From NCBI RefSeq assembly GCF_003289965.1, contig NZ_QMBQ01000001.1:248001-312000 (forward strand): DNA of 64,000 bases, read 5' to 3'. Origin of the DNA: Mesorhizobium atlanticum (GTDB taxonomy: Bacteria; Pseudomonadota; Alphaproteobacteria; Rhizobiales; Rhizobiaceae). The position numbers and the translations under genes are program-made. The notes under the pieces were generated by a model. The model was not told the DNA's origin. It made no database searches and saw nothing but the letters and a program-made list of their open reading frames with translations. Within the stretch, counting starts at the first letter, position 1. Every line of letters begins with the position of its first letter. Shown piece after piece: positions 7,542-45,921 of this stretch.

Positions 7542-9623
7542 TCAGCTCTCATGAAAATGATTGTAGACCAGCTTTGCCACATGCTCGGAAATGCCGTCGA
7601 CCTTGACCAGGTCCTCGACCGCGGCGCGGCTGACCGCCTTGGCGGTGCCGAAGGCGAGCAGCAGGGCGCGCTTGCGGCCCGGGCCGATGCCCGCGATCTC
7701 GTCGAGCGGGCTTTTCACCATCTCCTTCTTGCGGCGGGCCCGATGCGAGCCGATGGCGAAGCGGTGCACCTCGTCGCGCAAGCGCTGGACGAAATAGAGC
7801 ACCGGGTCGCGCACCGGCAGCATGAAGCTCTCCCTGCCTTTGACGAAGAAGCGCTCGCGGCCGGCATCGCGGTCCGGGCCCTTGGCGATGCCTATTGCCG
7901 TTACCCGGTCCTCGACACCGAGATCGGCAAGGATCTGGCGCACCGCCGTCATCTGGCCTTGGCCGCCATCGATCAGGATGACGTCGGGCCAGGCCGGGAA
8001 GCCGCCATTGCCGGCGACCAGGTCCTCGTCACCGGTGTCGTCCGCGGTTGCGCCGGGCTGCTCGTCGCCATGCTCCTTGAGCAGCCGCGAGAAACGCCGC
8101 TGCATCACTTCGCGCATCATGCCGAAATCGTCGCCCGGCGTGATCTCGGTCGAGCGGATGTTGAATTTCCGGTACTGGTTCTTCACGAAACCTTCCGGCC
8201 CGGCAACGACCATGGCGCCGACCGCGTTGGTGCCCATGATGTGCGAGTTGTCGTAGACCTCGATGCGCACCGGCGGTTTTGCCAGGCCGAAGGTCTCGGC
8301 GAATCCCTGCAGCAGTCGCGCCTGCGTCGAGGTCTCGGCCAGCCTGCGGCCAAGCGCTTCGCGGGCGTTCTGCAGCGCGTGATCGGTCAGGTCCTTCTTC
8401 TCGCCCCGCTGCGGTACAGAGATCGTAATCTTGCGGCCGGCATGGGTGGACAGCGCTTCGGCGAGCAGTTCCTGTTCCTGCGCGGCATGGGACAGCAGCA
8501 GCGCGCGCGCCGGCAATTTGTCGTCATAGAATTGGGCCAGGAACGAGCCCAGCACCTCGGCCGGCTCCAGCGCCGGATCGGCCTTGGGGAAATAGGCGCG
8601 GTTGCCCCAGTTCTGGCCGGTGCGGAAGAAGAACACCTGGATGCAGGTTTGGCCGCCTTCCTGGTGGATGGCGAAGACATCCGCCTCCTCCACCGTCTGC
8701 GGATTGATGCCCTGATGCGCCTGCACATGCGAGAGCGCGGCAAGCCGATCGCGGTAGATGGCGGCGCGCTCGAAGTCGAGCTCCTCGGAGGCCTGCTGCA
8801 TGGCGGCCGAGATTTCCGTCTTCACCTTCTGGCTGCGGCCGGAGAGGAAATCCTTGGCTTCCGCGACGAGCTCGGCATAGCCCTCATGCGAGATCTCGCC
8901 GGTGCAGGGACCGGCGCAGCGCTTGATCTGGTAGAGCAGGCAGGGCCTTGTGCGGTTCTCATAAAACGAATTGGTGCAGCTCCGAAGCAGGAAGGCGCGC
9001 TGCAGCGAATTGATGGTGCGGCCGACCGCGCCGGCCGAGGCGAAGGGGCCGAAATAGTCGCCCTTGCGCGAGCGCGCGCCGCGATGCTTGTAGATGCCGG
9101 GCGCGACATGGTCCCCGGTGAGCAGGATATAAGGGAACGACTTGTCGTCCCGCATCAGCACGTTGAAGCGAGGCCTCAGCCGCTTGATGAGGTTCGCCTC
9201 GAGCAGCAGCGCCTCGATCTCGGTGCGGGTGACGACGAATTCCATCGTCGCCGTCTCGCGCACCATGCGGCCGATGCGGGCGGTGTGGAACCGCCCCTGC
9301 GCGTAGTTGGTGACGCGCTTCTTCAAGCTGCGCGCCTTGCCGACATAGAGCACGTCGCCGGAGGCGTTCATCATGCGATAGACGCCGGGCTGGTTGGGCA
9401 GCCGCTTGACCAAGGTCTGGATCACCTCGGCGCCGACCATGCCGTCGGCATCGCCGGCATGCGGCGTCCAGTCGATGGCCGTGAAGGCGACATCGGGGCC
9501 GGTCGGCAAAGCCTCGGGTTCGACGATCTCCTCCGCCGCCTCATCCTCGACGTCGAGATCGACATCGGGGGGCAGGTCTTCGGCGGCGCCGTTGCGTCTG
9601 TGTTTTTGGGCTGCGGGACTCAT
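7542..9623 (-). CDS. uvrC: excinuclease ABC subunit C
   Basis: 693 residues. UvrC makes the two incisions around a lesion in nucleotide excision repair. The GIY-YIG nuclease domain begins near residue 79 (QPGVY ... [12 protein letters not shown]); then come the cysteine patch [13 protein letters not shown], a UvrB-binding domain, the RNase H-like nuclease region ([18 protein letters not shown] ... [10 protein letters not shown]) and two helix-hairpin-helix repeats at the end. The start at 9623 overlaps the upstream SDR stop as ATGA, deciding it over a start 33 bases earlier. About 65 acidic N-terminal residues precede the nuclease, an extension relative to E. coli. Confidence 0.97.
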
Positions 9624-31853: not shown

Positions 31854-33773
31854 TCATTCACCCCAACCGAGATCAAAGCGGAATCTTTGGCTTCCGAGTT
31901 CGCCGCGGCCTGCACCGGAAACCGGATACGTAACCTTGACGATGTGTAGGCCGGCGCCCTGCTGCAGTCCATATATGCCTTGCAGACCGCGGTCGTAAAA
32001 TCCTGCCAGCGGGATCAATATGGCGACGGCCGCGAGCGATCCTTGCAGCGCAAACTTACCTATGTTTTTCCGCAGAGAAATCTTGTTCTCAGTCAGATGC
32101 TTGCCAACTATCACCACGACCAGCAATCCGTAGATCGTCGCATTGAACGCGGCGAACCAGTAGAAACCGAAGGCTCTCGAAGGATGCTCCACTAGAAGCA
32201 CCGGCAACGAAGCTCCAACCGCTAGCAGGGCATATGGCACGATGACGCGAGCGGGCAGAAGGTGTTTCGGGCCGCTGCCTTTTGGAGTGACGCGGAAATC
32301 GACGAATGACTTGGTCAGATAATCGCGAACCGATGCCAGCGTTCCTGCCATTACCCACGGCCAGCGCGCGAACAAATGGAAGAGTGTCCCTTCCCAACTG
32401 ATAGCCTTCGCCGAGAATGGACGCGAGAGACCCAACCTCTTTAGAAAGATCACCAGAGCAATCGGGATGCCCGCGCTTGGCATGTAGTAGAAAAGGAAAT
32501 CCGGGTAGGTCACGTTGGCAAAATTGTTGCCCGACAAAAGCGCGTAGATCGGCATGGCATAGGTTGCCATCGCAAACAAAGCGAACATGGGATACCAGAG
32601 CTGGCAGAATACGAACTGCCGTCTGAGCCTCGGGCTGAGCTTGGACAGATATGCCGGCGTGTATTCAAGCAGGATGGTCGTCAAGCTGCGCGACCATTGG
32701 AATTCCTGAGTAATCAGATCGGCGAAAGTTTGCGGTCCGTCGCCGTTGGCGATTGCGTCAATCGCGTGCACGCCGCGCCAGCCGGCGGCGTTGATCAGCA
32801 TCGAGGTGGAATGATCCTCGGCAAGCTCCGGACCGAGACCCCCGGCCTCACGCAGCGCCCTCGTCCTTACGGCATAGTGCGAGCCGATGCAGAGGGGTGC
32901 GCCGCTAGCTGTGTAACCGGATTGCAATGGTCCGTGAAGCATCCCCTCAACAAACAGCCGGCCACGGGCCGCCCAGCTTTCATTGGCATTGTTGTCGCAG
33001 ATGCTGGGCGCCGAGACGTAACCGACGCCAGGATCGGCAAACGGATAGAGGATTTCCCTCAGATAGGTCGGCGTCGGCACGTGATCGGCGTCCATCTGAG
33101 CGACGAAGTCGTAGCGCTCGTAACCGTAGTGGTCGTAAAAGAAGGCCAGATTGCCTTCCTTGCAGCGGGTCCGGCGCGGCCAGGTCTTGCGGTGATAGTC
33201 CTCGCGGCCGCGCCTGGTCGAAATCAGCACGCCATGGGCGTCGCACCAGCGAACCGTCGCCTCGGTCGGATCCTCGTCGGCAAGCCAGGTGTCGTGCGGA
33301 TAGTCCTGCGCCAGCATCGCTTCCAATGTGCGCTGCACCACGGCGAAAGGTTCCGACGGCGCCTTGGTGACCACCATGGCGACGCGTGAACGCTTAGGGA
33401 TCGTGTGCAGCTTCGAGGACTTCCTCGAGGCATGGACGTTGAGCAGGAAATACATCGGCATCAAGGTCAGCCAGGCCAGCACTATGGTGGCGAAGGCAAA
33501 GGGCCCGAGATGGCCGATATGCTCGGGCCGCAACCACCAGGACCAGAAGAAAGCCAGCGTGAGGAACCAGAAAGCGATGCCAAGCCGCAGGATCAATTGC
33601 TGGCGCGACGTGAGGACGGGCACGAGGTAGGGCCCATTGGGGCCGTGGCCAGCCGGAACCTCGCCAGCCTTGCCGATTGACGTCGTTTTGCCGCCGACAA
33701 CGTCGGCTCCCCCAGATACGCCCATACTACCCGCCGCCCTGCCCGCCCGGCAAAGCCGGTCGAACGCATTCAT
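31854..33773 (-). CDS. cellulose-synthase-like GT2 glycosyltransferase
   Basis: 639 residues. Two helices (about 58-105) precede a large GT-A domain with D-x-D type motifs: LADEDPTEATVRW near 165, MDADHVPTPTYL near 230, AEDHSTSM near 320, and QEFQWSRSL near 355 in place of the classical QxxRW. Four or five further helices follow (about 395-610). The set is that of processive bacterial synthases such as cellulose or glucomannan synthases, which polymerise and export a beta-glycan. No PilZ domain is seen. It is likely the main polymerising enzyme of the island. Confidence 0.9.
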   Translation of the reverse strand: MNAFDRLCRAGRAAGSMGVSGGADVVGGKTTSIGKAGEVPAGHGPNGPYLVPVLTSRQQLILRLGIAFWFLTLAFFWSWWLRPEHIGHLGPFAFATIVLAWLTLMPMYFLLNVHASRKSSKLHTIPKRSRVAMVVTKAPSEPFAVVQRTLEAMLAQDYPHDTWLADEDPTEATVRWCDAHGVLISTRRGREDYHRKTWPRRTRCKEGNLAFFYDHYGYERYDFVAQMDADHVPTPTYLREILYPFADPGVGYVSAPSICDNNANESWAARGRLFVEGMLHGPLQSGYTASGAPLCIGSHYAVRTRALREAGGLGPELAEDHSTSMLINAAGWRGVHAIDAIANGDGPQTFADLITQEFQWSRSLTTILLEYTPAYLSKLSPRLRRQFVFCQLWYPMFALFAMATYAMPIYALLSGNNFANVTYPDFLFYYMPSAGIPIALVIFLKRLGLSRPFSAKAISWEGTLFHLFARWPWVMAGTLASVRDYLTKSFVDFRVTPKGSGPKHLLPARVIVPYALLAVGASLPVLLVEHPSRAFGFYWFAAFNATIYGLLVVVIVGKHLTENKISLRKNIGKFALQGSLAAVAILIPLAGFYDRGLQGIYGLQQGAGLHIVKVTYPVSGAGRGELGSQRFRFDLGWGE

Positions 33774-33983
33774 CCCACTACAGAATCAGCTTGATCTAAT
33801 GCAGAGTCAATAAAATTAGGCTTTCGTTAACCAAGCTTATTGGGAACTGGTTAACCCACGATGGCCTCCGCGACCTTCACCGGTCAGGGCGCGGCCGCAA
33901 CGCCGGCTGGTGTGAAGCGCTCGGGGCCGTCCTTCCCATTAACCATACCGGTGGCGCTAAGGTTAAGTAACGGTTAATTGCGC

Positions 33984-34013
33984 TTGACTCTCGTCGAGTA
34001 TAGGCTCTTATAT
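33984..34013 (+). promoter_or_regulatory. candidate promoter of the GH26 gene
   Basis: TTGACT and TTATAT are separated by 18 bases; the -10 lies inside a 14-base near-palindrome (CTCTTATATGAGAG), which could be an operator. Confidence 0.4.
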
Positions 34014-34068
34014 GAGAGAGGGTTAATATCGTAATGTTGACGCGAATTTGTGAGTATCGCGGCGATCT

Positions 34069-34103
34069 TCTCTCCAGGTTTCAGGTAGAGAAACCTAGAG
34101 AGA
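34069..34103 (+). promoter_or_regulatory. leader hairpin 1 of the GH26 transcript
   Basis: AGGTTTC and GAAACCT make a 7-base stem with a 7-base loop; TCTCT and AGAGA extend it across a 2-by-2 internal loop. It would lie in the 5' leader. No T-tract follows, so it is a leader structure rather than a terminator. Confidence 0.45.
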
Positions 34104-34224
34104 TAACCTCGGCGGACGGCGCTTCGTAAGACACGCCCGTCCCAGTCGCTCAGGCAACCCACGATTCACGTTGGCAGACGTTAGGGTTTGCGCGCCGGTT
34201 CATGCCGGCACGCAGCGGCAAGTT

Positions 34225-34245
34225 CCGATGTCCGTCGGACGTCGG
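34225..34245 (+). promoter_or_regulatory. leader hairpin 2 next to the ribosome site
   Basis: CCGATGTCC-gtc-GGACGTCGG forms a 9-base stem (one G-U pair) six bases ahead of the GGGAGGC ribosome site. It could affect translation of the GH26 gene. Confidence 0.45.
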
Positions 34246-34262
34246 AGCCATGGGAGGCAAGC

Positions 34263-35180
34263 ATGAAATACTCCACGGCAACTGCATTCATGTCGGCGCT
34301 GGTTATCGGCGGCGGCCTTGCGTTCCCGGCTTCGACGGGGTCCCAGACCGGAACGGATCCGATCAAGACGAGCTCGGCCGCGTCGGCGTTCGGCTCCTAC
34401 GATCCTTACGGCGATTTCAGCAATGACAAGTCGGCCAGCATCGAGGAACTGTTCCTGCCTTGGGAAGACGTCGACCTGTCGACGCTGCCGCTGGCGGACG
34501 CCTATGCGCAGCAACGCGGCCGCTCGCTGCTGATCACCATCGAGCCTTGGACGTGGTCGAAGGACTGGCGCATCACGCCGCCTGAGCTGAAGAACGGCAT
34601 ATTGAGCGGCAAGTATGACGCCAACATGCAGGCGATCTGCAACCTCGTCGGGCAGATGAAGAGCCCGGTTACCATCCGCTGGGCGCAGGAGATGGAAGAC
34701 ACCAACGGCCGCTTCACCTGGGCCAACTGGGCGCCGAAGGACTGGATCGCCGCCTACAAGCGCGAGGTGGACGTCTGCCGCAAGGCCGCGCCTGCGGCAA
34801 AATACATGTGGTCGCCCAAGGGTATCGAGGGCCTGGAAAAATACTATCCCGGCGACAACTATGTCGACGTCATCGGCCTGTCGGTGTTCGGCCTGCAGAA
34901 GAAGGACAATGACGAGGTGGGCCGCGACCGGACCTTCGAAGAGACGCTGAAGCCAGGCTATGACCGTGTCGCGAAATTCAACAAGCCGGTCATCGTTGCC
35001 GAATTGGGCTATGTCGGAAAGCAGGACTACGTGTCCAAATGGGCCGACGACTCGCGCAAGTCCTATGCGGAGTTTCCGGCCCTGACCTCGGTCGTCTACT
35101 TCAACCAGAAGGAAGTCTGGCCGTGGCTGGGCGGCTACGGGCTGCCCGACTGGCGAGTGACCCAGCACGTCCTGCCGTAG
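34263..35180 (+). CDS. exported GH26-type glycoside hydrolase
   Basis: 305 residues. A signal peptide (about 1-23) exports it. The (beta/alpha)8 enzyme has the GH26/clan-A pattern: the likely acid/base Glu143 in IRWAQEMED and nucleophile Glu247 in VIVAELGY, about 100 residues apart, with ITIEPW and WNQ-like WAN/WSP sites for substrate. GH26 members cut beta-mannans or mixed beta-glucans, so it may trim or cleave the polymer made by the divergent synthase. GGGAGG precedes the ATG at 34263. Two leader hairpins suggest controlled expression. Confidence 0.85.
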   Translation: MKYSTATAFMSALVIGGGLAFPASTGSQTGTDPIKTSSAASAFGSYDPYGDFSNDKSASIEELFLPWEDVDLSTLPLADAYAQQRGRSLLITIEPWTWSKDWRITPPELKNGILSGKYDANMQAICNLVGQMKSPVTIRWAQEMEDTNGRFTWANWAPKDWIAAYKREVDVCRKAAPAAKYMWSPKGIEGLEKYYPGDNYVDVIGLSVFGLQKKDNDEVGRDRTFEETLKPGYDRVAKFNKPVIVAELGYVGKQDYVSKWADDSRKSYAEFPALTSVVYFNQKEVWPWLGGYGLPDWRVTQHVLP

Positions 35181-35292
35181 GGCGCGACAGACCATGCCCG
35201 TCCCGGCAGGACAGGGGCGGGCTCCAGTTTTATAGTTTGACAGGGATCGCCCCAAGGCCGAGCCTTGGGGATCGGTTCAAGGCGTGGCGTAA

Positions 35293-35814
35293 ATGAGTTG
35301 GCGGAGTAAAATCGTGAACAGGGTGTTGGGGAATCTGCTCGGAGCGGCGCTAGCCTGCTCCGTTTTTGTTGTCGGCCCGCAGGGCGCTGCGATGGCCAAG
35401 GCCGCGAACAGGATCGACGCTAAGGTGGCGAAGGCCGCCGTCGTTTCCGACGAAGACGTCTATCAGCTCTACAAGAACCGTTCCTGGCGCTGGGGCAATC
35501 ACGGCGCCGCCTATTTCGCGGTGCAGAAGCGGCAGTTTACAGCCTGGTCCACCGAAGGTGGAAAGAGCTATGGCGAGGGCATCTGGTTCATGCCCGGCAG
35601 CGGTAAGCTGTGTTTCCGGGCAACCTGGCATGGCTCATGGGGCGCCAAGACCTCCTTGAGCTGCTTCGAGCATCGCCAGGCCGGCAAGGTGATCTACCAG
35701 CGCAAATCTCCGGGCGGAGACTGGTACGAGTTCAGGGATCGCCACGGCAAATCGGACCTGCGCAATGGCGACTACGCCAGCAAGAAGGTGAAACGCTTCA
35801 AGGCGAAGCTGTAG
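35293..35814 (+). CDS. DUF995-family exported protein (copy 2)
   Basis: 173 residues. A signal peptide (hydrophobic about 12-30) precedes a DUF995 domain: QLYKNRSWRWGNHGAAYFA, FTAWS, GEGIWFMPGSGKLCFRATW, CFEHR and GDWYEFRDR. It is clearly related to the protein at 26617-27216 across the same landmarks. The tail is very basic (KKVKRFKAKL). The function is unknown. It lies 112 bases after the GH26 gene and could share its transcript. Confidence 0.84.
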   Translation: MSWRSKIVNRVLGNLLGAALACSVFVVGPQGAAMAKAANRIDAKVAKAAVVSDEDVYQLYKNRSWRWGNHGAAYFAVQKRQFTAWSTEGGKSYGEGIWFMPGSGKLCFRATWHGSWGAKTSLSCFEHRQAGKVIYQRKSPGGDWYEFRDRHGKSDLRNGDYASKKVKRFKAKL

Positions 35815-36038: not shown

Positions 36039-37196
36039 ATGCCTAAGGCTGGCAGATCCATCCTGATCACGGGAGCACGCGCGCCGGTGGCGCTGCATCT
36101 GGCGCGCCTTGTCCACGGCGCCGGGCGCAGGGTGATCCTGGCCGACACCCCGGCCCGGCCGATCGCGGCGGCGAGCAAGGCCTGCGCCCGCTATCACCGC
36201 CTGCCGCCGCCGCGCTTCGAGCCGCGGGCCTATGCCGATGCGGTGGAAGCGCTGATAAGGGCTGAAGGCGTCGAACTGGTCATCCCGACCTGCGAGGAAG
36301 TCTTTCACCTTGCGCTGGCCTGGCGCGGCAGGACCATGCCGGCAAAAGTGTTCGCGCCCGAGATCGGGTTGCTGGCGCAGGTCCACAACAAGCACAGCTT
36401 CATCCGGCTCGCCGATCGGCTTGGGCTGGAGGTGCCGGAGACCACGCTTCTCAATTCCCGCGACGATCTGGAGCCGGTGCGTGGCCACTCGCGCGACCTG
36501 GTGTTCAAACCGGTCTGGTCGCGCTTCGCCAGCCATGTTCTGCTGCGGCCGACACCGGATTTCCTCGATGCGATCGCGCCCTCGCCTGCCATGCCCTGGG
36601 TGGCGCAGCGTTTTGTCGAGGGCGAGGAGATCAGTGCCTATGTGGTGGCGCGCGAGGGACGGCTCAAGGCGCTGGCGCTCTATCGTTCTCCCTACCGCGC
36701 CGGCAGGGGCGCCGGCATCTTCTTCGAGCGGGTCGAGGACGATGCGGCGCGGGCGCTGGTCGAGCGCATCGTTGCCGGCACCGCATGGACCGGGCAGATT
36801 TCGTTCGACCTGATGCGTGAGCCCAGCGGCCGTGTGCTGCCGCTGGAATGCAATCCGCGCGCGGTGAGCGGCCTGCATTTCTTCCGCGATCCGGCGCGCT
36901 TCGCGGATGCCCTGCTCGGCGACGGCCAGGAAATCAGGCCGGACGTCACCCCGCCGCAAACGGTGCGGCTTGCGATGTGGATCTATGGGCTGCCGGCGGC
37001 GCTGCGTTCGGGCGAGTTCGCCCGCTTTCGCCAAGCGATGCGCGAGGGCGAGGAACTGCTCGATTGGCCGGGCGACTCAGCCCCAGTAAGGGCGCAATGG
37101 CCTGCACTGGCAGAGGTTGCGCGCGTGGCGTTGCGCGAGCGGATCAGCCTGCAGGCAGCGTCGACGCGGGATATCGAGTGGAACGGGCCGGGCTGA
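36039..37196 (+). CDS. ATP-grasp enzyme (carbamoyl-phosphate-synthase-like)
   Basis: 385 residues. An N-terminal nucleotide-binding-like domain (ILITGARAPVALHLARLVHGAG) leads to the ATP-grasp core: KHSFIRLADRLGLEVPET, LVFKPVWSRFASHV with the ATP-binding Lys, VAQRFVEGEEISAYVV, and the metal-binding end ISFDLMREPSGRVLPLECNPRAVSG. ATP-grasp enzymes join a carboxylate to an amine or thiol through acyl phosphate; the substrate is unknown here. It stands alone at the right edge of the polysaccharide island and may modify the glycan or an unrelated metabolite. Confidence 0.85.
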   Translation: MPKAGRSILITGARAPVALHLARLVHGAGRRVILADTPARPIAAASKACARYHRLPPPRFEPRAYADAVEALIRAEGVELVIPTCEEVFHLALAWRGRTMPAKVFAPEIGLLAQVHNKHSFIRLADRLGLEVPETTLLNSRDDLEPVRGHSRDLVFKPVWSRFASHVLLRPTPDFLDAIAPSPAMPWVAQRFVEGEEISAYVVAREGRLKALALYRSPYRAGRGAGIFFERVEDDAARALVERIVAGTAWTGQISFDLMREPSGRVLPLECNPRAVSGLHFFRDPARFADALLGDGQEIRPDVTPPQTVRLAMWIYGLPAALRSGEFARFRQAMREGEELLDWPGDSAPVRAQWPALAEVARVALRERISLQAASTRDIEWNGPG

Positions 37197-37798: not shown

Positions 37799-37853
37799 GT
37801 GAACTATAATTCACACAGACGCTCAGGTCAAGATGTGTGAACTTCAGTTCACA
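37799..37853 (-). promoter_or_regulatory. promoter and twin operators of the toxin-antitoxin operon
   Basis: On the minus strand TTGACC (37831-37826), 17 bases, TATAGT (37808-37803): a near-consensus promoter. Operator 1 (37799-37814) GTGAACTA-TAATTCAC covers the -10. Operator 2 (37836-37853) TGTGAACT-tc-AGTTCACA is a perfect palindrome just upstream of the -35. Centres are 38 bases apart. This is the expected architecture for repression by the antitoxin complex. Operator 2 overlaps the stop codon of the Rieske gene. Confidence 0.85.
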
Positions 37854-38844
37854 ATTCGATCTCGTGCACCCTGGCCTCGCTCGCCGCCGGCGGCACCCTT
37901 CCCTCCATGATCGCCGCGATGTCGCGGCGCAGGAAATCGAGCGGGCCGATGACCGGCACGGCCTGCGGCGGAAACCGGGCATTGTCGCTTGCCGATTTCA
38001 ACACGCGGCGGTCCTGGTGCAGCGCGATGGTGAAGAGTGGCTTGAATGCCAGCGCCTTCAGCTCGCCGAGCAGGCCCTGGCGCCGTCCGATCAGCCAGCC
38101 GACGCCCTCGACGGTGCGCTCGTCGGCCTGGCGCAGATGAAAGGTGGTGGCCAAGACCAGCCCGTCCTTGCCCCAATATTCGAGCTCCGCGATGCCGGGA
38201 TGGCGGAAGCGGCCGATGGTTTTCGCGCGCTCGCCTTCCAGGAGCCTGCTGATCAGGCCCTGCTGGCGATCCTCGCCGGTGTAGCTCGCCTCGACCCAGC
38301 CATCGCCGCCCGTCACCTCGACCCGCACCAGATGGCGCTTGGAGGTGAGGCCGCGCAGCAGGCCCTTGTGGGTGAAATGGGTATGGGTGGCGTCGAGGAT
38401 GTTTTCCGCCGCGTCGATGACCGTCGACTGTGTCGACGAGCGTACGCGCCGCACGATGATGTCCTTGCCCTGCATACAGTGCAGGTAGGGCGCGCCCCGC
38501 GGCGTGCCGGATGAGATGAAGACGACGCCGTCGCGCTCGATCGCGGCGTAGCGGCGGACCCGGTAATGCGGCATGGCGCCGACATGGCCGGGGATCGCCG
38601 TGCAGCGGCCTTCGCCGTCATAACGCCAGCCGTGATAGGGGCATTCGATCTCGTCGCCGACGATCTTGCCGGTCGACAGCTCGACCAGCCGGTGGGGGCA
38701 GCGGTCGAACAGCGCGGCGATGCCTTTCGCCGAGCGGAACAGCACCACGGGCTCGCCGTCGAGCAGGATGCGTTTCGGCCGCCTGCCAATATCGGCGGAC
38801 AGCGCCACCGCCTGCCAATGCGCTTCCCCACGGCGCTCGCTCAC
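37849..38844 (-). CDS. Rieske non-heme iron oxygenase
   Basis: 331 residues. The Rieske cluster ligands are C49-P-H51 and C68-x2-H71 (CPYHGW). The mononuclear iron site is D151-x2-H154-x4-H159 within ENILDATHTHFTH, so it is a complete oxygenase alpha subunit, like those that demethylate or hydroxylate rings or alkyl chains. It needs an external electron donor that is not encoded nearby. It begins with GTG overlapping the preceding stop as GTGA. It is the last gene of the six-gene KAS III cluster. Confidence 0.93.
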   Translation of the reverse strand: MSERRGEAHWQAVALSADIGRRPKRILLDGEPVVLFRSAKGIAALFDRCPHRLVELSTGKIVGDEIECPYHGWRYDGEGRCTAIPGHVGAMPHYRVRRYAAIERDGVVFISSGTPRGAPYLHCMQGKDIIVRRVRSSTQSTVIDAAENILDATHTHFTHKGLLRGLTSKRHLVRVEVTGGDGWVEASYTGEDRQQGLISRLLEGERAKTIGRFRHPGIAELEYWGKDGLVLATTFHLRQADERTVEGVGWLIGRRQGLLGELKALAFKPLFTIALHQDRRVLKSASDNARFPPQAVPVIGPLDFLRRDIAAIMEGRVPPAASEARVHEIEL

Positions 38845-39986
38845 AATTCGAACCTCCTGAGCAGCGGAATTCCGACCAGCGCCAGCACGGCCTCCATCAC
38901 ACGGATCGCCATGCGCCGGCGAAGCGGAAGATGTCCGGCATAGACGGCGTTGTATTCGATAGCGGCAACGGCACCGCGCCGTCTTTTGAAACCGGCGGCG
39001 CCCGCGCTCATGTTGAAGAACAGGCCGCGCGCCGTGGCGTGCTCCTGCGCCACTGCCATCATCATGCGGTAAAGCCCGTCGGCCACCGGCAGGTCAGTGT
39101 CGTAGCCGACGATCGGCTGGGTCAGCGTGCGGCCGTTTTCGAACAGGCCGGTGACGGCGACCAATTCGCCGCCGGGCCGGCGCAGGCCCGCCAGGCTGAT
39201 GATGCCGCGCCGGTGCATCTCGGCAATGTAGCGGGCGGTGTAGTGCGGATTGAGCGGCGTGTATTTATCGAGATAGAGCAAATTGTAGAGCTGCTCGGCG
39301 CGGGCGTAGTCGGCGCCGGTGAAGTCGCCATTGCCGACCCGCTCGAAGGGTGTTTCGCGCAGGCGGGCGCGATCGCGCTTCATGTCGCGCGTCATGGCGG
39401 GCGCGGCGCTGCGGTCGGCGAAGATGTAGATCTGGCGCGCCGCCAGCATACGGAACCCCTCGGCCTTCAAGGCGGCAATGGTCGCCGGATCGGCGATGTC
39501 GTTCAACGAGCGGATGACGATGGCGCGATCGGGGAAACGCGCGGTCAGGTCGGCACGCAGGGACGCGGCGGTCGGCCGGTCGAGCAGCGGCACCGGATTG
39601 GTCGAATAGAGCCAGTTGTTGACCTGTGCCTGACGGTCGAGGCCGCTGGCCCTGACCAAAGGCGCGCAGGCCCTGATCAGGGCGTTGAGCGCGCGCTTGA
39701 GCAGCGGATGGGCGGCGAAGTTGCGCGTCTCGTCCATCGCATAGTCGATGTAGGCGCCGGTCGGGCAGCAGATGTAGCAGTTGGGCGCATCATCGGCGCC
39801 GTTCAGGGTCAGCGGAAAAACGTGCCCGGCAAGTTCGAACGTCTCGACCTTCGTCTTGAGGTTGGCGACGAGGTCGCGCACGGGCACCTCGTTGAAAAGC
39901 CTTACGAAAGCCTCGACCTTGGCCGGCTTGTTCTCGACGCGGTCGGCCTGCTGTACGGGCCTTTCCATCATCGTCGCGCCGCTCAT
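38841..39986 (-). CDS. GNAT-type acyltransferase-like protein
   Basis: 381 residues. The first 130 or so (VRDLVANLKTKVETFELAGH, VFPLTLNGADDAPNCYICCP) are not assigned to a known domain. The C-terminal part resembles GNAT/FemAB acyltransferases: YARAEQLYNLLYLDKYTPLNP, IISLAGLRRPGGELVAVTGL, LFFNMSAGAAGFKRRRG. It would transfer an acyl group to an amine or similar nucleophile. Start and stop overlap the neighbours as ATGA and GTGA, so it is translated with the ligase and the oxygenase. An odd Cys cluster (NCYICC) near residue 70 could bind metal. Confidence 0.75.
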   Translation of the reverse strand: MSGATMMERPVQQADRVENKPAKVEAFVRLFNEVPVRDLVANLKTKVETFELAGHVFPLTLNGADDAPNCYICCPTGAYIDYAMDETRNFAAHPLLKRALNALIRACAPLVRASGLDRQAQVNNWLYSTNPVPLLDRPTAASLRADLTARFPDRAIVIRSLNDIADPATIAALKAEGFRMLAARQIYIFADRSAAPAMTRDMKRDRARLRETPFERVGNGDFTGADYARAEQLYNLLYLDKYTPLNPHYTARYIAEMHRRGIISLAGLRRPGGELVAVTGLFENGRTLTQPIVGYDTDLPVADGLYRMMMAVAQEHATARGLFFNMSAGAAGFKRRRGAVAAIEYNAVYAGHLPLRRRMAIRVMEAVLALVGIPLLRRFEL

Positions 39987-41239
39987 CGCGCCGGCTCCAG
40001 GCGGCATTCGACGCGGCGCAGCTTGCGGCCTGTTTCCAACGGCAGCGGCGTGCGGACCAGCGTTATGGTGGCGGCCGCCTTTCGTATTTCCAGGAGAGCA
40101 CGCACAGCTTGATGCGCGGCCACCGCCGCATCGTCGGGGAGCGTCGGCGGAAGTCTGAGCTCGATGCTCTCCGACGCGGTCTGGACAAGGCGGAAATCGT
40201 CGATGCGGCGGTCTGCCTTGAGCACGGCGTTGCGCAGCACATCGGGCGCGACCAGGATTGGCCCATTCGGCGACGTGAATCGGAAGGCATCGTCCATGCG
40301 GCCGACAATTTCGTCGACGCAGCGCAACGGCGAACCGCAGCGGCAAGGTTCTTTGGACAAACGCAACAGGTCGTTCATCCTGTAACGCGCCATGATCTGT
40401 GTTTGACGGCGAAAGGCGGTCACCAGCGGCGTCACCAGCCCCTCGCCCGCCGGCTCGAATTCGAAGAAGACGGAGTCTTCCGCCAGATGCAGGCCGCCCT
40501 GTCGGCAGGTCACGGCGAACAGGCCCTCCGTCGCCATGTAGATCTGGTCGAGCGGCCGTTGGAAGAAGTTCTCGATCACCGGGCGATCGACCGGATCGAG
40601 CGTCTCGGCGGCGGAAAAAACGCGCTTCGGCCGGAGCCGGAAGCCTTCGGCCGCAAAATGCCGCAGGATCTTTGGCGGCGCGATGATGACCGTCGGGTCG
40701 AAGGCTTGCAGTTCATCGCGCCAGCTTTCCGGCCCCAATGTCAGATCGAAGAAGGCAAGCTTGATCAGGCGCGATTTGCGGGCGCTGTCATAGAGCCCGG
40801 TGTTCTGCGGCAGGATGACGGCGACTCGCATGCCGCGCCAGAGAAGATCGGCCGCCGCCTTGGCGAGGATCGCTCCGAGCCATCGGTATTTCTCCGCTTC
40901 CGAAATCACGAACAGGCCGCGATTGCCGGAGGTGCCGGTGCTGGCGCCGACCGCGAGCGCGCCGGCGCGGCCGTCCCGCGCCAAGGCCGCCCAGGCTTGC
41001 GCGGCGGTGAGACCGTGGATGTTGAACTCGTCGAAGCGCGCCATCAGCAGCGCCTTGTCGGTGACCGGCAGATCGCTGAGGCGGGCCGGCGCCTTGCCGT
41101 AAAAGGGCGCGCGCGGCAGGTCGCGGTCGAGGAAACGGCGCAAGGCGGTCGCCTGCCAGCGCTCAAAATCCGCGCGGCTTTTCCGCGACACCCAGCGTGT
41201 CAGGGCGAAAGACCCTGCCGCCTCCGCCAGCCCGTTCAT
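39983..41239 (-). CDS. PaaK/F390-synthetase-type adenylate-forming ligase
   Basis: 418 residues. It has the AMP-binding core of the phenylacetate-CoA ligase/F390 synthetase branch: GASTGTSGNRG (phosphate loop, about 98-108), the aromatic ATEGLF near 250, and ARYRMNDLLRLS near 310, with a C-terminal domain ending in TGRKLRRVECRL (Lys near 407). Such enzymes activate a carboxylic acid as acyl-AMP and pass it to a thiol or other acceptor. CRCGSPLRCVDEIVGR resembles PaaK-type proteins. It overlaps the genes on both sides by ATGA. Confidence 0.87.
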   Translation of the reverse strand: MNGLAEAAGSFALTRWVSRKSRADFERWQATALRRFLDRDLPRAPFYGKAPARLSDLPVTDKALLMARFDEFNIHGLTAAQAWAALARDGRAGALAVGASTGTSGNRGLFVISEAEKYRWLGAILAKAAADLLWRGMRVAVILPQNTGLYDSARKSRLIKLAFFDLTLGPESWRDELQAFDPTVIIAPPKILRHFAAEGFRLRPKRVFSAAETLDPVDRPVIENFFQRPLDQIYMATEGLFAVTCRQGGLHLAEDSVFFEFEPAGEGLVTPLVTAFRRQTQIMARYRMNDLLRLSKEPCRCGSPLRCVDEIVGRMDDAFRFTSPNGPILVAPDVLRNAVLKADRRIDDFRLVQTASESIELRLPPTLPDDAAVAAHQAVRALLEIRKAAATITLVRTPLPLETGRKLRRVECRLEPAR

Positions 41240-42060
41240 GAAACCTCCGGCGCGAGGTCATAAGGCGTCGGCGCGGGATCATGGCAGAGCATCACCTCGC
41301 CGCCCGTGCTGAGGAAGCGGCGCAGCATGGCGCTGGTCGGCTCGATCGCCGCCGCCTCCTCGGCGATCAGGGTGGCCGGGAAACCGGGCGTGCGATTTTC
41401 GATCAAAGCAGTGAGCAGCCATTGCGCATCGACGGCGTAGAGCAGCGGGCGGTGGAGGCCATTGAACAGCAGGCCGAACTGGCCATCGGCATGTCCTGGA
41501 AGATCGACCGCGATCACGCTGCCGTCGTCGAAGAGATCGGCGCCGCCCGGTACGTCCTCGCGCGTTTGGACGCCCCGCTTCGCGGACAAACCTTCCAGCC
41601 GCGCCTCGAAATCCGGAGGAAAAAGTTCGGTGAAGACGCCATGGCGCAAATTCTGGCGCCGCGTGCGCGCCTTGACCCTCCCCCAGGCTGCATCGCTGGC
41701 GATGAAACGGGCGTTGCGGAACAGCGACAGGCCCGAAATGTGGTCGGCATGGAAATGCGTGACGATCACGGCGCGGATGTCATCGGGCGACAGGCCGAAA
41801 CGCCGCAGCACCGGCAGAACCTGCTCCTCCGCATTGAGATCGGGCTTCAGCAGCGCGCCGTAAAGCCGCAGCATCAGGCCGCGCCGGTCGCCGCTCAGCG
41901 CTTCCGGCGTGTAGCCGGTGTCGACCAGCACCGGTCCGGCGGCGGGGTGAAAGAACAGCCCGTAGCGGACACGCAGCCCGACGTTTTTCCAGCTCCCGCC
42001 GCGCAGGATCAGCCGCTCGGCGGCGTTGACCCAGGCGCTGTTGGCAAAGACGAGCCTCAT
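41236..42060 (-). CDS. metallo-beta-lactamase-fold hydrolase
   Basis: 274 residues. The zinc site THFHADH gives H102, H104, D106 and H107; further ligands are the His of DLPGHADGQFG, the Asp of AVDAQW and the His of MLCHDP. The arrangement, with a tyrosine-bearing N-terminal part, resembles lactonase- and thioesterase-like members. It may open a lactone or free a thioester in the cluster's pathway. Start and stop both overlap neighbours by ATGA. Confidence 0.9.
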   Translation of the reverse strand: MRLVFANSAWVNAAERLILRGGSWKNVGLRVRYGLFFHPAAGPVLVDTGYTPEALSGDRRGLMLRLYGALLKPDLNAEEQVLPVLRRFGLSPDDIRAVIVTHFHADHISGLSLFRNARFIASDAAWGRVKARTRRQNLRHGVFTELFPPDFEARLEGLSAKRGVQTREDVPGGADLFDDGSVIAVDLPGHADGQFGLLFNGLHRPLLYAVDAQWLLTALIENRTPGFPATLIAEEAAAIEPTSAMLRRFLSTGGEVMLCHDPAPTPYDLAPEVS

Positions 42061-43040
42061 GGCCTGGTCCCGCCGGGAAAGGTGCGGTCAAGCCCTTGCT
42101 CGAACGAGATTTTCGGCGCCCAGCCAAGAACGCGTTTCGCCTTGGAAAGATCGAGGCTTTGCGCATAGGCGAAGAGACCGAGCCCATAGCGGGTGACCGG
42201 CGGCTCGGGCCGGCCGGGCAGCCGCAGCGCCACCGCTTCCATCAGGCCAGCCGCCAGCATCGCCGGCATGAGCGGCATCGGCCGCCACCGCGCCTTGAGA
42301 CCGGCGCGGATGCAGGCCTCGTCGGCGATGCGGCGGACCGGCAGCACCTCGCCGCCGGAGATATTGAATATCCGCTGCTCCGCCTCCCTGGGTGCCGCGA
42401 GCGCCGCCATGACCGCGTCGACGACATCGTCGACATAAGTGAGGTCGATGGCCGCCCGGCCGTCGCGAAACAGCGGCAGCGGCCGGCTTTTCGCCGCCTT
42501 GATCAGGCGCGGCAACAGCGCGCGATCGCCCTTGCCGTAGATGCCGCGCGGCCGCAGCACCACCGGATGGATATCGGGCTGGCCAAGCACGATTTTCTCC
42601 GCCTTGCGCTTGGTGCGAGCATAGTGATTGACCGGTTCCGGCAAGGCCGCATCCTCGGTGAGACCGAGTTGGTCGCGGAAGGCAAAGCAGACGGACGGGC
42701 TGGAGATGTGGACGAAACGGCTGACGTCCTGCCGGCTGGCGAAGTCGACGAGGTTCCGGGTCGCCATCACATTTGCCGCCTCGAAATCCGCGAGGCGTCG
42801 GAAGGGCGAAGAAAGCGCCGCGCAGTGGATAATCCGTTCGACCCTGCTCAGCCTGGGGTCGAGGGCGGCGCCGAACGGCTGCGCGAGATCGTGACGGATG
42901 ATGCGATGGCCGGCCGCTTCGAGCGCCGCGCAGCGCGCCTCATCGCGGCCGAGCCCGAGCGCCAGCGTGCCGGATTCCGCCAGCCGCTCGAGCACATGGG
43001 CGCCGAGAAAGCCGCTTGCGCCGGTGACGAGGACGGCCAT
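42057..43040 (-). CDS. extended SDR (3-beta-HSD/OleD-like reductase)
   Basis: 327 residues. TGASGFLG (6-13) binds NAD(P); catalytic Ser near 113-115 in HISSPSV and Y140-x3-K144 in HYARTKRKAE. RGIYGKGDRALLPRL and LTYVDDVVDAV place it in the 3-beta-hydroxysteroid dehydrogenase/OleD branch, which reduces beta-keto groups on long acyl chains. It lies 2 bases after the KAS III-like gene, an arrangement suggesting it reduces that enzyme's beta-keto product. Its stop overlaps the hydrolase start by ATGA. Confidence 0.9.
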   Translation of the reverse strand: MAVLVTGASGFLGAHVLERLAESGTLALGLGRDEARCAALEAAGHRIIRHDLAQPFGAALDPRLSRVERIIHCAALSSPFRRLADFEAANVMATRNLVDFASRQDVSRFVHISSPSVCFAFRDQLGLTEDAALPEPVNHYARTKRKAEKIVLGQPDIHPVVLRPRGIYGKGDRALLPRLIKAAKSRPLPLFRDGRAAIDLTYVDDVVDAVMAALAAPREAEQRIFNISGGEVLPVRRIADEACIRAGLKARWRPMPLMPAMLAAGLMEAVALRLPGRPEPPVTRYGLGLFAYAQSLDLSKAKRVLGWAPKISFEQGLDRTFPGGTRP

Positions 43041-43042
43041 GC

Positions 43043-44032
43043 TCAGACCTCCAGCGCCATGCCGCCGAAGGAGACGCCGGCGGAAGTACCGAGGAAGAGC
43101 AGCTTTATGCCGGGCGCTACGCGGCCCTCGCGGCGAGCGACGTCGAGCGCGAAGGGCATGGAGGCGGCGATCTGGTTGCCGAAGCGGGCAGAGATATCGA
43201 CGAGCTTTTGCGGCGCAAAGCCGGTCTGGCGCGCCATATGCGCAAGCGCGAACGGGCTCGCCTGATGCGGCACGACGAGATCGACGTCGTCGCGCCGCCA
43301 GCCGGCGCGCTCGAGCAGAATGTCGACGAAACCGTTGAAGTGCCGCGAGGTGAGCCGGAACAATTCCTTGCCGTCCATGTGGAACAGGCTGTGCGCGGCA
43401 AACGCCTCCTGATCCTTGCGGAAATCGAAGCGCGTGCCGCCCGAACCGATGCCGCAGGCTTCCCAACCGGAAGGGTAAGTGCGCATCAGGCTCGCCGCTA
43501 CCTTGCCCTCGCCGGGCCCGGCCTTGCGCAGCACGGCCGCCGCCGCGCCGTCGCCGAAGAGCGCGGCAATCTCCGGCGCGTCCTGCCATGGCAAAGCGCG
43601 CGAGGCGACTTCGGACGAGAAGACCAGGGCTGTCTCGCATTGCCCGGCCTCGATCATGCGGCCGGCGGTCTCGAAGGCGGTGAGGAAGCCAAGACAGGTG
43701 CTGTTGACGTCGAAAGCGGCGGCCGAACCGTCCGCCAGCCCGAGGCGCTGCATGACCAGCGGCGCGGTCGCCGGGAGCGGCTGATAGGGCACGCCGCAGC
43801 CGCCCACGATCAGGTCGACGGCGCCGGGCTCGATACCGGCATCGGCAAGCGCAAGCGTGGCCGCGGCGCAAGCGAGATCGATTTGCGATTCGGCATTGCA
43901 GACATAGCGCTCGACGACGCCTGTGACGGTTTCCAGCGTGCCCTCGCCGAGGCCGAGCGTTGCCTCCAGGGCGCGCGTGGTAACCCTCTCAGCCGGTACC
44001 GCCCTGCCGGTTCCGACGACCTTGATCCGCAT
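43043..44032 (-). CDS. KAS III-like beta-ketoacyl synthase
   Basis: 329 residues of the thiolase fold. The full catalytic triad of KAS III/OleA enzymes is present: C113 in DVNSTCLGFL, H256 in VVPHQAS, N286 in FGNQIAASMP. The C-terminal LLFLGTSAGVSFGGMALE is also typical. Such enzymes condense an acyl thioester with malonyl-ACP or with a second acyl chain. The core fab cluster is elsewhere in this window, so this is a specialised copy. It has a strong ribosome site (GAGGGGGG) and is the first gene of the six-gene unit. A possible own promoter (TTGGGA, 17 bases, CATTTT) lies in the 86-base gap upstream. Confidence 0.92.
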   Translation of the reverse strand: MRIKVVGTGRAVPAERVTTRALEATLGLGEGTLETVTGVVERYVCNAESQIDLACAAATLALADAGIEPGAVDLIVGGCGVPYQPLPATAPLVMQRLGLADGSAAAFDVNSTCLGFLTAFETAGRMIEAGQCETALVFSSEVASRALPWQDAPEIAALFGDGAAAAVLRKAGPGEGKVAASLMRTYPSGWEACGIGSGGTRFDFRKDQEAFAAHSLFHMDGKELFRLTSRHFNGFVDILLERAGWRRDDVDLVVPHQASPFALAHMARQTGFAPQKLVDISARFGNQIAASMPFALDVARREGRVAPGIKLLFLGTSAGVSFGGMALEV

Positions 44033-44118: not shown

Positions 44119-44913
44119 TCATCGCTTCCGCAGGAAGCCCACCACCGCCTCGATGAACTCCGCCGGACGCTCGACATTGAGCAGGTGGACGCCGGGGAGC
44201 AGAAGAAGCTCAGCACCGGGGATCGTGGCCGCGATGGCCTCGCTGTGGCTTGCCAGCGTCACCTTGTCGTCCTCGCCGCCGATGACCAGCGTCGGCGCGG
44301 TGATCAGCGAAATCGGGCGGCGCAGATCGGCGTCGCGGACCGCGGCGAAGCAGCCCGCAAGGCCTTGCGGCGACATGGCGAGGATCGCGGCGTGGAATTC
44401 TTCGACGGTCTCGTTTCGACCGGCAAACATCGAGGCCGGGAACCAGTTGCGCATGAACATCTCCGCCGTGGCCGACAGGTCGGCTGAAAGCACGTTGCGT
44501 ATCTGCTCGTCGAAATAGGACGCCGGCCCGAGATGCGGCGAGGTGTTGGAGAGGATAAGGCGCTCGATGCGTTCCGGCGCGTGGATGCCCAGCCACTGGC
44601 CGACGAAACCGCCGAGCGACAGGCCGAGGAAATGCACGCGCGCAAGCCCGAGGAAATCGAGCAGTTCCAGGACGTCGCGGCCGAGGCGGTCGAGCGAATA
44701 GGCGCCGGCCGGCGCGTCGGAGCCGCCATGGCCACGAAAATCATAGCGCAGCACGCGGAAGGATCTGGCGAGTTCGGGAACCTGGCCATCCCACATATGG
44801 AACGTCGTGGCGATGGAATTGGAAAGCACCAGCACCGGCCGGTCTTCCGGACCGTCCAGCCTGTAGGCGATGCGGGTGCCATCGCCCGTGGTGAAGTGAA
44901 GTGTGTCGGTCAT
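44119..44913 (-). CDS. alpha/beta hydrolase, 3-oxoadipate enol-lactonase-like
   Basis: 264 residues. The nucleophile Ser99 lies in GLSLGG; acid Asp in VIGGEDDKVT near 217; His in LPGVHLLNVERP near 243. FRGHGGSDAPAGAYSLDRLG is typical of the PcaD (enol-lactonase) branch, and a divergent LysR gene is the classical partner of pcaD, though no other protocatechuate genes are here. It could instead act on a lactone or ester in the KAS III pathway, whose first gene starts 86 bases downstream. Confidence 0.87.
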   Translation of the reverse strand: MTDTLHFTTGDGTRIAYRLDGPEDRPVLVLSNSIATTFHMWDGQVPELARSFRVLRYDFRGHGGSDAPAGAYSLDRLGRDVLELLDFLGLARVHFLGLSLGGFVGQWLGIHAPERIERLILSNTSPHLGPASYFDEQIRNVLSADLSATAEMFMRNWFPASMFAGRNETVEEFHAAILAMSPQGLAGCFAAVRDADLRRPISLITAPTLVIGGEDDKVTLASHSEAIAATIPGAELLLLPGVHLLNVERPAEFIEAVVGFLRKR

Positions 44914-45024: not shown

Positions 45025-45921
45025 ATGGATGGCGTGAAGCTTCACGATCTCAGATGTTTCGATGCAGTCGCCAGTCGAGGCAGCTTCCAGGCTGCTGCCC
45101 AAGCTCTGCACCGGACGCATCCCTCTGTGTTCGCCGCCATCGCCCGACTTGAAGAGCAACTTGGCCTGACGCTGCTTGATCGCAGCGGTTACCGGGTGAG
45201 CTTGACCGACGAGGGCCGCCTGTTCCATGCGCGGGCGCAGCTGGCAATCCGCGAGTTGGAGCATCTTCGGACCTATGCTGACCAGCTCGCGAGCGGCGAG
45301 GAGACCGTGCTGCGCGTCGTGTTGGGAGACGTCTGCCCGAGACCCGCAATACTCAGCCTGCTCAGCCGCTTCTTCGCCGAGCGGCCGCGCACGCGCCTGC
45401 ACCTCGACTATGAAGCGATCAGCGGGCCGGTCGAGCGGCTGATGGATGGCGAGGCGGACCTCATCTTCCACCGCGCCAACCCCTCCGACCCGCATCTCGA
45501 GCGGATCGACCTACGCGAAGTCGCCTTCGTGCCGGTTGTGGCACCGGGCTTCCTCCCCTTCGAGGCCGTATCCAATGTGACGCCGGAAGCGATGCGACCC
45601 TTCACCCAATGCGTGATCCGCGACACCGCGCGGCGTCCCTCATCCGAAAACTTCTTCGTCATCGACGGCGCGCATTCATGCTCGGTGCCTGACCATATGA
45701 TGAAGAAGGAGCTGATCCTGCACGGGCTCACCTGGGGTCATTTGCCGGAATGGCTGATCGAGGATGAGCTGCGCGACGGGCGGCTGATCTCGATCGCCGG
45801 CAGGCATATTCCCGGCCGCAACGAGACCGTGGCCGCGGTTCGGCGGCGCGACAGGCCGCATGGGCCCGTGGCCGAGGCGCTGTGGCGACACCTCGAGGAC
45901 AGTCCCAAGCTTCCGGGCTAA
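45025..45921 (+). CDS. LysR-family transcriptional regulator
   Basis: 298 residues. The winged helix-turn-helix is at about 5-63 (LHDLRCFDAVASRGSFQAAA, HPSVFAAIARLEEQLGLTLL); the effector-binding periplasmic-binding-like domain follows (about 90-295). It is divergent from the alpha/beta hydrolase with a 111-base AT-rich gap (ATTATCG, TATGATTTGACAA) where a T-N11-A site would be expected. It probably controls that hydrolase and possibly the KAS III cluster beyond. Its TAA stop overlaps the convergent holC stop. Confidence 0.93.
   Translation: MDGVKLHDLRCFDAVASRGSFQAAAQALHRTHPSVFAAIARLEEQLGLTLLDRSGYRVSLTDEGRLFHARAQLAIRELEHLRTYADQLASGEETVLRVVLGDVCPRPAILSLLSRFFAERPRTRLHLDYEAISGPVERLMDGEADLIFHRANPSDPHLERIDLREVAFVPVVAPGFLPFEAVSNVTPEAMRPFTQCVIRDTARRPSSENFFVIDGAHSCSVPDHMMKKELILHGLTWGHLPEWLIEDELRDGRLISIAGRHIPGRNETVAAVRRRDRPHGPVAEALWRHLEDSPKLPG

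Follow-up and report, generated by a model that had tools for sequence, protein, structure and literature searches.

A conserved four-gene core with exchangeable tail genes at a Mesorhizobium atlanticum locus, a candidate pathway for hydroxylated lipid acids

A translation-coupled gene block and its enzymes

The stretch of Mesorhizobium atlanticum DNA analyzed here (64,000 nucleotides, contig NZ_QMBQ01000001.1, positions 248,001 to 312,000; hereafter the window) carries six coupled genes on the minus strand between window positions 37849 and 44032. They encode a KAS III-type ketosynthase (beta-ketoacyl synthase, KAS), an extended short-chain dehydrogenase/reductase (SDR), a hydrolase of the metallo-beta-lactamase (MBL) fold, an adenylate-forming ligase (LIG), a GNAT-type transferase and a Rieske oxygenase (RIE). 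Judged by these families, the set would have a biosynthetic role. An earlier note on this DNA had described the six genes, and we recovered their coordinates and strand as well as the junctions from KAS to RIE, a 2-base gap followed by the 4-base overlaps ATGA, ATGA, ATGA and GTGA. The family calls of the six genes agree with NCBIfam and Pfam searches. The note overlooked a convergent ATP-grasp gene (ATPG), with which the set of this lineage comprises seven genes (Table 1). The genome is 6.53 Mb in size and the ligase gives one match in it.

Table 1 Genes of the set and their positions in the window
Gene	Product and place in the set	Positions	Strand	Length
KAS	KAS III-type ketosynthase, core gene 1	43043-44032	-	329 aa
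SDR	Extended SDR, OleD-like reductase, core gene 2	42057-43040	-	327 aa
MBL	Metallo-beta-lactamase-fold hydrolase, lactonase-like, core gene 3	41236-42060	-	274 aa
LIG	TIGR02304 PaaK/F390-branch adenylate-forming ligase, core gene 4	39983-41239	-	418 aa
GNAT	Tandem-GNAT (Fem/MprF-fold) transferase, tail gene	38841-39986	-	381 aa
RIE	Rieske non-haem iron oxygenase, tail gene, GTG start	37849-38844	-	331 aa
ATPG	ATP-grasp carboxylate-amine ligase-like protein, convergent, seventh member	36039-37196	+	385 aa

The ligase is the sole product of the seven genes above an NCBIfam cut-off (TIGR02304, 266.6 bits against 251.9). NCBIfam names this model "F390 synthetase-related protein", a name that gives the operon no function and does not imply F390 chemistry. 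The best NCBIfam model is PRK07204 for the ketosynthase (290 bits, cut-off 402), OleD for the reductase (173 bits, cut-off 580) and the AttM-type lactonase family for the MBL enzyme (61 bits, cut-off 390), which also matches PF00753 above its cut-off. Among solved structures, the ketosynthase profile scores 313 bits against 4v2p, which we take to be MxnB, 302 against CorB (4yuc), and 265 and 254 against FabH enzymes; for the KAS itself the values are 160 bits for 4v2p, 153 for FabH and 150 for CorB. The earlier assignment to the KAS III family stands, and the nearest relatives of the enzyme are ketosynthases of the MxnB/CorB type rather than OleA. The MBL enzyme is closest to acyl-homoserine lactonases and 4-pyridoxolactonase.

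The predicted catalytic sites of the core enzymes are preserved. In alignments whose rows were picked for diversity and include the window's own sequence, C113, H256 and N286 of the ketosynthase, reported intact in the earlier note, are present in the window and invariant in 32/32 rows. The same holds for H102, H104, D106, H107, H190, D211 and H260 of the MBL enzyme (32/32), for S113, Y140 and K144 of the reductase (30/30), and for S100, G102, T103, S104, G105, E238, D290, R314, D317 and K406 of the ligase (15/15). In the Rieske protein C49, H51, C68, H71, N148, D151 and H154 are invariant in 27/27 rows and H159 is kept in 26/27. We matched these residues to what we take to be the catalytic motifs of the families.

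Of the tail enzymes, the Rieske protein matches PF00355 above its cut-off and carries the CxH...CxxH cluster motif and the NxxDxxH...H iron-site motif. The GNAT protein matches PF13480 (26.3 bits against a cut-off of 22), and its structure model refines the earlier "GNAT-like" call to a tandem fold of the Fem/MprF type, that of the Fem/MprF aminoacyl-tRNA-dependent transferases. The best NCBIfam model of the ATP-grasp protein is PRK06849 (320 bits, cut-off 406); the ATP-grasp fold and conserved polar residues are present, and its model resembles carboxylate-amine ligases. Sequence searches of these two proteins against solved structures gave no usable match. Because of the two models, the head group that the tail is predicted to add here is probably of an amino-acid type.

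Conservation and residence of the gene set

We compared gene families around the ligase in 79 related loci. All four core families (KAS-SDR-MBL-LIG) occur in 74 of them, and each of the five loci without the full core (L005, L040, L049, L065 and L074) meets a contig end on the side of the missing genes. The seven families are all present in 58/79 loci, in three arrangements. The most frequent (48/79) is that of the window, KAS-SDR-MBL-LIG-GNAT-RIE followed by the convergent ATP-grasp gene. Six loci, including ones from Caulobacter, Hyphomonadaceae and a sphingomonad, have LIG in divergent orientation to a RIE-GNAT-ATPG-MBL-SDR-KAS run, and in four KAS-SDR-MBL-LIG-ATPG faces RIE and GNAT. As the families are rearranged without loss, there is strong evidence that the ATP-grasp gene belongs to the set. 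The families are thus kept together in relatives, and since they recur jointly across related and distant loci we reject chance co-location. The data also support a conserved set that is, as in the earlier view, apart from primary fatty-acid synthesis, whose genes fabF, fabG and fabD lie elsewhere in the window, at 60.4-64 kb.

The linkage extends well beyond the order. Fifteen regions were taken from annotated records (L111-L125; 14 of 60 matched plasmid records, and E. coli EC958), and 14 of the 15 hold the four core families. The exception is the Pseudomonas megaplasmid pMPPla107 (L115), where just the ligase and the ATP-grasp protein were found within a 9-kb stretch. In a phylum-wide sample, 10 of 398 genomes gave a match at 1e-50 or better; seven of the ten are from outside the genus, and the core is present in all seven of their neighbourhoods. 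The ligases of Paenibacillus, Pontibacillus, Paraburkholderia, Pseudomonas, Ketogulonicigenium, Paracoccus sp. MA and E. coli are 30-36% identical to that of the window. Given such low identity with a kept core, the linkage is either ancient or has repeatedly moved as a unit. We conclude that the core is conserved from Alphaproteobacteria to Firmicutes, Fusobacterium, Burkholderiales and E. coli.

Large Pseudomonas plasmids (L115, L120 and L121) bear the ligase, and on one of them, the megaplasmid pBASL58 (L120), core genes and an ATP-grasp gene lie dispersed between genes of no known kind. The SDR of L160 (6982-7991), one of the seven loci from outside the genus in the phylum-wide sample, lies in two successive open frames and is possibly broken.

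Within the genus the block appears to be an old resident. We searched 121 relatives and found 37 with a match, namely 30 genus members (this genome included) with strong matches and seven genomes of the same order with weak ones; 64 relatives without a match are not listed, and at least 20 genus members are without the set. The genus loci mostly have the holC-pepA genes on one side and often a pair of GH26 and glycosyltransferase genes on the other. We searched ten set-less genus genomes for holC and read seven of the neighbourhoods. In two (L166 and L167) holC lies within ~1 kb of the GH26/glycosyltransferase pair and there is no block, and in a third (L162) an apparently decayed ATP-grasp fragment (~8480-8850) beside holC is a trace of past loss. 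In the other four, neither the flank pair at holC nor an ATP-grasp fragment was seen. Because of the same flanks, the joined flanks free of the block and the decayed fragment, old residence with losses fits better than recent transfer. A mobile element as such is disfavoured on the same grounds, and no integrase is among the annotated genes of the window, which are not all of its genes. In one genus member the ligase gene (G355:C202:21518-22741) matches in three pieces and is broken or misassembled.

Outside the genus the set is also borne on plasmids, in Rhizobiaceae and Rhodobacterales. In E. coli, 672 of 5,426 complete genomes have a match, with 671 places on chromosomes and two on plasmids. 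The set of E. coli EC958 is located between narI and a tRNA-Tyr gene.

A conserved core with exchanged tails

The earlier note had treated the six genes as a unit. They are kept so in relatives, but across phyla only the first four are conserved, the GNAT, Rieske and ATP-grasp genes being a tail that can be exchanged. An ATP-grasp gene, with or without GNAT or Rieske, lies beside the core in L112, L114, L119 and L159-L161. Elsewhere other families take this place. DUF3419 (PF11899), presumably the family of BtaA, which transfers aminocarboxypropyl onto diacylglycerol, is found in L045, L048, L051, L075 and L124. Sulfotransfer_3 (PF13469) is found in L055, L058, L060 and L113, with L059 added by BLAST cluster and L118 by annotation. 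GT21 (PF13506), which we take to be the family of ceramide glucosyltransferases, is found in L076 and, in a different phylum, in L122. The E. coli locus L111 and also L155 have PAP2_3, FA_hydroxylase and FA_desaturase genes; PAP2_3, as we understand it, includes inositol-phosphorylceramide synthases. Of the families tested there, FA_hydroxylase and FA_desaturase were found in L157 and FA_desaturase in L156. The E. coli EC958 operon (L111:6164-13045; L125:4001-10882) is a seven-gene operon of lipid type, formed by the core together with PAP2, fatty-acid hydroxylase and desaturase genes.

In a tree built from 51 selected ligases, at least four changes are required for DUF3419 and two for the sulfotransferase, over well-supported branches. 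As several changes are needed, the tail has been exchanged repeatedly. We conclude that the set is modular, with a conserved core and swapped tails. The recurring tails are of kinds used on sphingolipids.

In Fusobacterium vincentii (L122:4210-11153) one run contains a short-chain SDR, GT21, a 215-aa protein without an assigned family, and then SDR-MBL-LIG-KAS. In L045 (12294-13273) a Rieske-like gene after the DUF3419 gene consists of two overlapping open frames and is possibly broken.

Proposed product, rival readings and neighbouring genes

We suggest that the core makes a hydroxylated lipid acid and that the tail in the window adds a hydroxyl and a head group of an amino-acid type, a reading that we hold to be somewhat more probable than not. 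The kinships of KAS, SDR and MBL and the lipid-type tails favour an acid that is hydroxylated, may have two chains and is activated by the ligase. In this scheme the ketosynthase would join or extend acyl chains to a 3-keto product; we prefer two chains joined head to head, as the nearest relatives are MxnB and CorB, although the number of chains is a guess. The SDR would reduce the ketone to a 3-hydroxyl, and since OleD belongs to the 2-alkyl-3-oxoalkanoate reductase family, it would suit a product of chain joining. The MBL enzyme might open or hydrolyse an ester, lactone or thioester bond, its role likewise being a guess, and the ligase would adenylate the carboxyl and so enable its transfer onward. 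An amine-bearing group could be attached, and acylated or aminoacylated, by the ATP-grasp ligase together with the transferase of the Fem/MprF fold, and the Rieske enzyme would hydroxylate the product. The sequence of the MBL, ligase, ATP-grasp/GNAT and Rieske steps is again a guess.

Several observations weigh against this reading. None of the NCBIfam models listed for KAS, SDR or MBL is matched above its cut-off. No acyl carrier protein (ACP) is encoded among the seven genes, the flanks not having been searched for one. The model matches of the ATP-grasp protein are tied across many functions, biotin carboxylase included, and the tandem-GNAT fold also spans acyl-CoA N-acyltransferases, a common fold showing no function. 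Among the tails, the sulfotransferase gene is a divergent neighbour in L113 and L118 and hence a weaker link, no GNAT was detected beside DUF3419 in L045, L048 and L051 or beside the ATP-grasp and Rieske genes of L159-L161, and L043, L063, L064 and L073 have a core without a nameable tail. In a class-wide sample, 38 of 289 genomes match TIGR02304 at 0.001 and just one, the window's own, is above the cut-off, so the set is sporadic. Finally, the PaaK-branch ligases with solved structures include aryl-acid enzymes, with a phenylacetate-CoA ligase (4r1l) and AjiA1 as the nearest relatives, and an aromatic start fits equally well.

The last point leads to the main rival, an aromatic or quinolone-like signal, which we consider rather unlikely. 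Here the ligase would load an aryl acid, the KAS extend it as PqsD does, the MBL enzyme act as a thioesterase like PqsE, and the tails decorate a phenol or enol. Besides its nearest solved relatives, the ligase has weak NCBIfam matches to BagE/FevW and FlxY, the KAS also matches PqsC (67.7 bits) and 3h76 ('PQS biosynthetic enzyme', 65.7 bits), and phenols would suit the sulfotransferase and glycosyltransferase tails. The Pqs matches of the KAS are, however, much weaker than those to 4v2p, CorB and FabH. Acyl-homoserine lactonases are the closest relatives of the MBL enzyme, whose listed families and chains include no Pqs thioesterase, and tails with DUF3419, PAP2, a desaturase or a fatty-acid hydroxylase indicate lipids.

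The OleABCD operon likewise combines a KAS III-type enzyme, an OleD-like extended SDR, an adenylate-forming ligase and a hydrolase, whereas here the KAS is not OleA-like, the ligase is of the TIGR02304 family, the hydrolase has the MBL fold and tailoring genes follow. In the Ole pathway the hydrolase, OleB, is of the alpha/beta type. The alpha/beta hydrolase upstream of the block, a PcaD-like protein (44119-44913), has strong matches in 7/79 loci, which also excludes it as a member, and the conserved set has no OleB-type enzyme. The KAS reaches 116 bits against PRK09258, which we take to be the OleA-type family (cut-off 285), and the ligase passes TIGR02304; of the five NCBIfam families it matches, none is an OleC model, and a Pfam search at E 0.01 gives no family for it. 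On the KAS and the missing OleB we reject the standard olefin pathway, in agreement with the earlier note, which had called this route unlikely with a ligase that is not OleC-like. A variant, in which KAS, SDR, LIG and MBL replace OleA, OleD, OleC and OleB to give an olefin, a beta-lactone or its hydrolysis product, we regard as quite improbable. The functional parallel is four-for-four, the MBL enzyme is lactonase-like, and the top NCBIfam matches of the SDR are two 2-alkyl-3-oxoalkanoate reductase models (173 and 127 bits, the next being 104). In addition to the KAS and ligase scores, it is contradicted by the match of the KAS to presumed OleA chains (3row and kin) over residues 25-145 alone and by Leu or Ile, in 32/32 rows, at the position aligned with Glu117, presumably the OleA base. 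Hydroxyl-acting tails would also make no sense on an olefin.

It is also rather improbable, in our judgement, that the KAS uses malonyl-ACP to extend a single acyl chain into a 3-hydroxy acid, from which the tail makes an N-acyl amino acid resembling ornithine or glycine lipids. FabH-type KAS III enzymes are the next closest solved relatives in the profile comparison, and amide formation would suit GNAT and ATP-grasp. However, FabF and FabG already give 3-hydroxyacyl-ACP, which would make a dedicated KAS and SDR redundant, and in none of 32 rows does the KAS have Arg at the position that an alignment by eye pairs with Arg249 of E. coli FabH, which we take to be the ACP-docking residue.

Returning to the hydroxylated lipid acid, MxnB and CorB (myxopyronin, corallopyronin) share the Cys-His-Asn site with the KAS and form an alpha-pyrone from two polyketide chains that are bound to ACPs; we know of no operon in which an SDR, an MBL enzyme and an F390-type ligase accompany them. 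The other system of interest is the bacterial ceramide pathway, with the enzymes Spt, AcpR, AasR, CerR and bCerS (PMC11324152, PMC11087976). The two are alike in acyl chain condensation, a reductase, an acyl-activating enzyme and an N-acyltransferase, and differ in that a KAS III and an MBL hydrolase stand here in place of serine palmitoyltransferase. No such alpha-oxoamine synthase is encoded among the seven genes, the rest of the genome not having been searched. A bolder and tentative proposal, possible in our view but with the balance against it, is that the core makes previously unknown two-chain lipids, similar to ceramides or mycolates, by an MxnB/CorB-type KAS III and without serine palmitoyltransferase. 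The same backbone would then be capped with interchangeable heads (amino acid, aminocarboxypropyl, sulfate, sugar or phospho-group) in bacteria ranging from Fusobacterium to uropathogenic E. coli. If the product is a lipid, it would represent a new class of membrane backbone in bacteria, and several orphan families, TIGR02304 as well as the tail families DUF3419 and Sulfotransfer_3, would gain a role together. Since the tails are interchangeable, the backbone lends itself to a test, strains that differ in the tail only being expected to give the same core mass with a predictable difference in the head group.

We found no description of the gene set in the open-licence literature, a weak negative as most subscription journals lie outside it. 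The set spans many Mesorhizobium species, marine Rhodobacterales, Firmicutes and E. coli. An F390 synthetase-like ligase has been proposed to attach glycerol in ladderane lipid synthesis (PMC2649909). Coenzyme F390 synthetase appears in a single line of a table in papers on P. syringae pv. actinidiae and on P. aeruginosa ATCC 27853, and other 'F390 synthetase' papers concern, by their titles, methanogens, coenzyme F420 in Mycobacterium smegmatis, sulfate reducers and Acinetobacter in a phenol study.

Two further neighbours were rejected as members of the set: a LysR gene at 45025-45921, with strong matches in 8/79 loci, and a toxin-antitoxin pair between RIE and ATPG. The pair (37202 to ~37796, minus strand) encodes a RelE/ParE-type toxin (TIGR02683, 123 bits) and its antidote (TIGR02684, 115 bits), which occurs in just 14/79 loci at 43-99% identity. 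Beyond ATPG, at 31854-35814, the window encodes a GT2-like glycosyltransferase, a GH26-like protein and a DUF995 protein; a glycosyltransferase and GH26 pair flanks the block in several Mesorhizobium loci.

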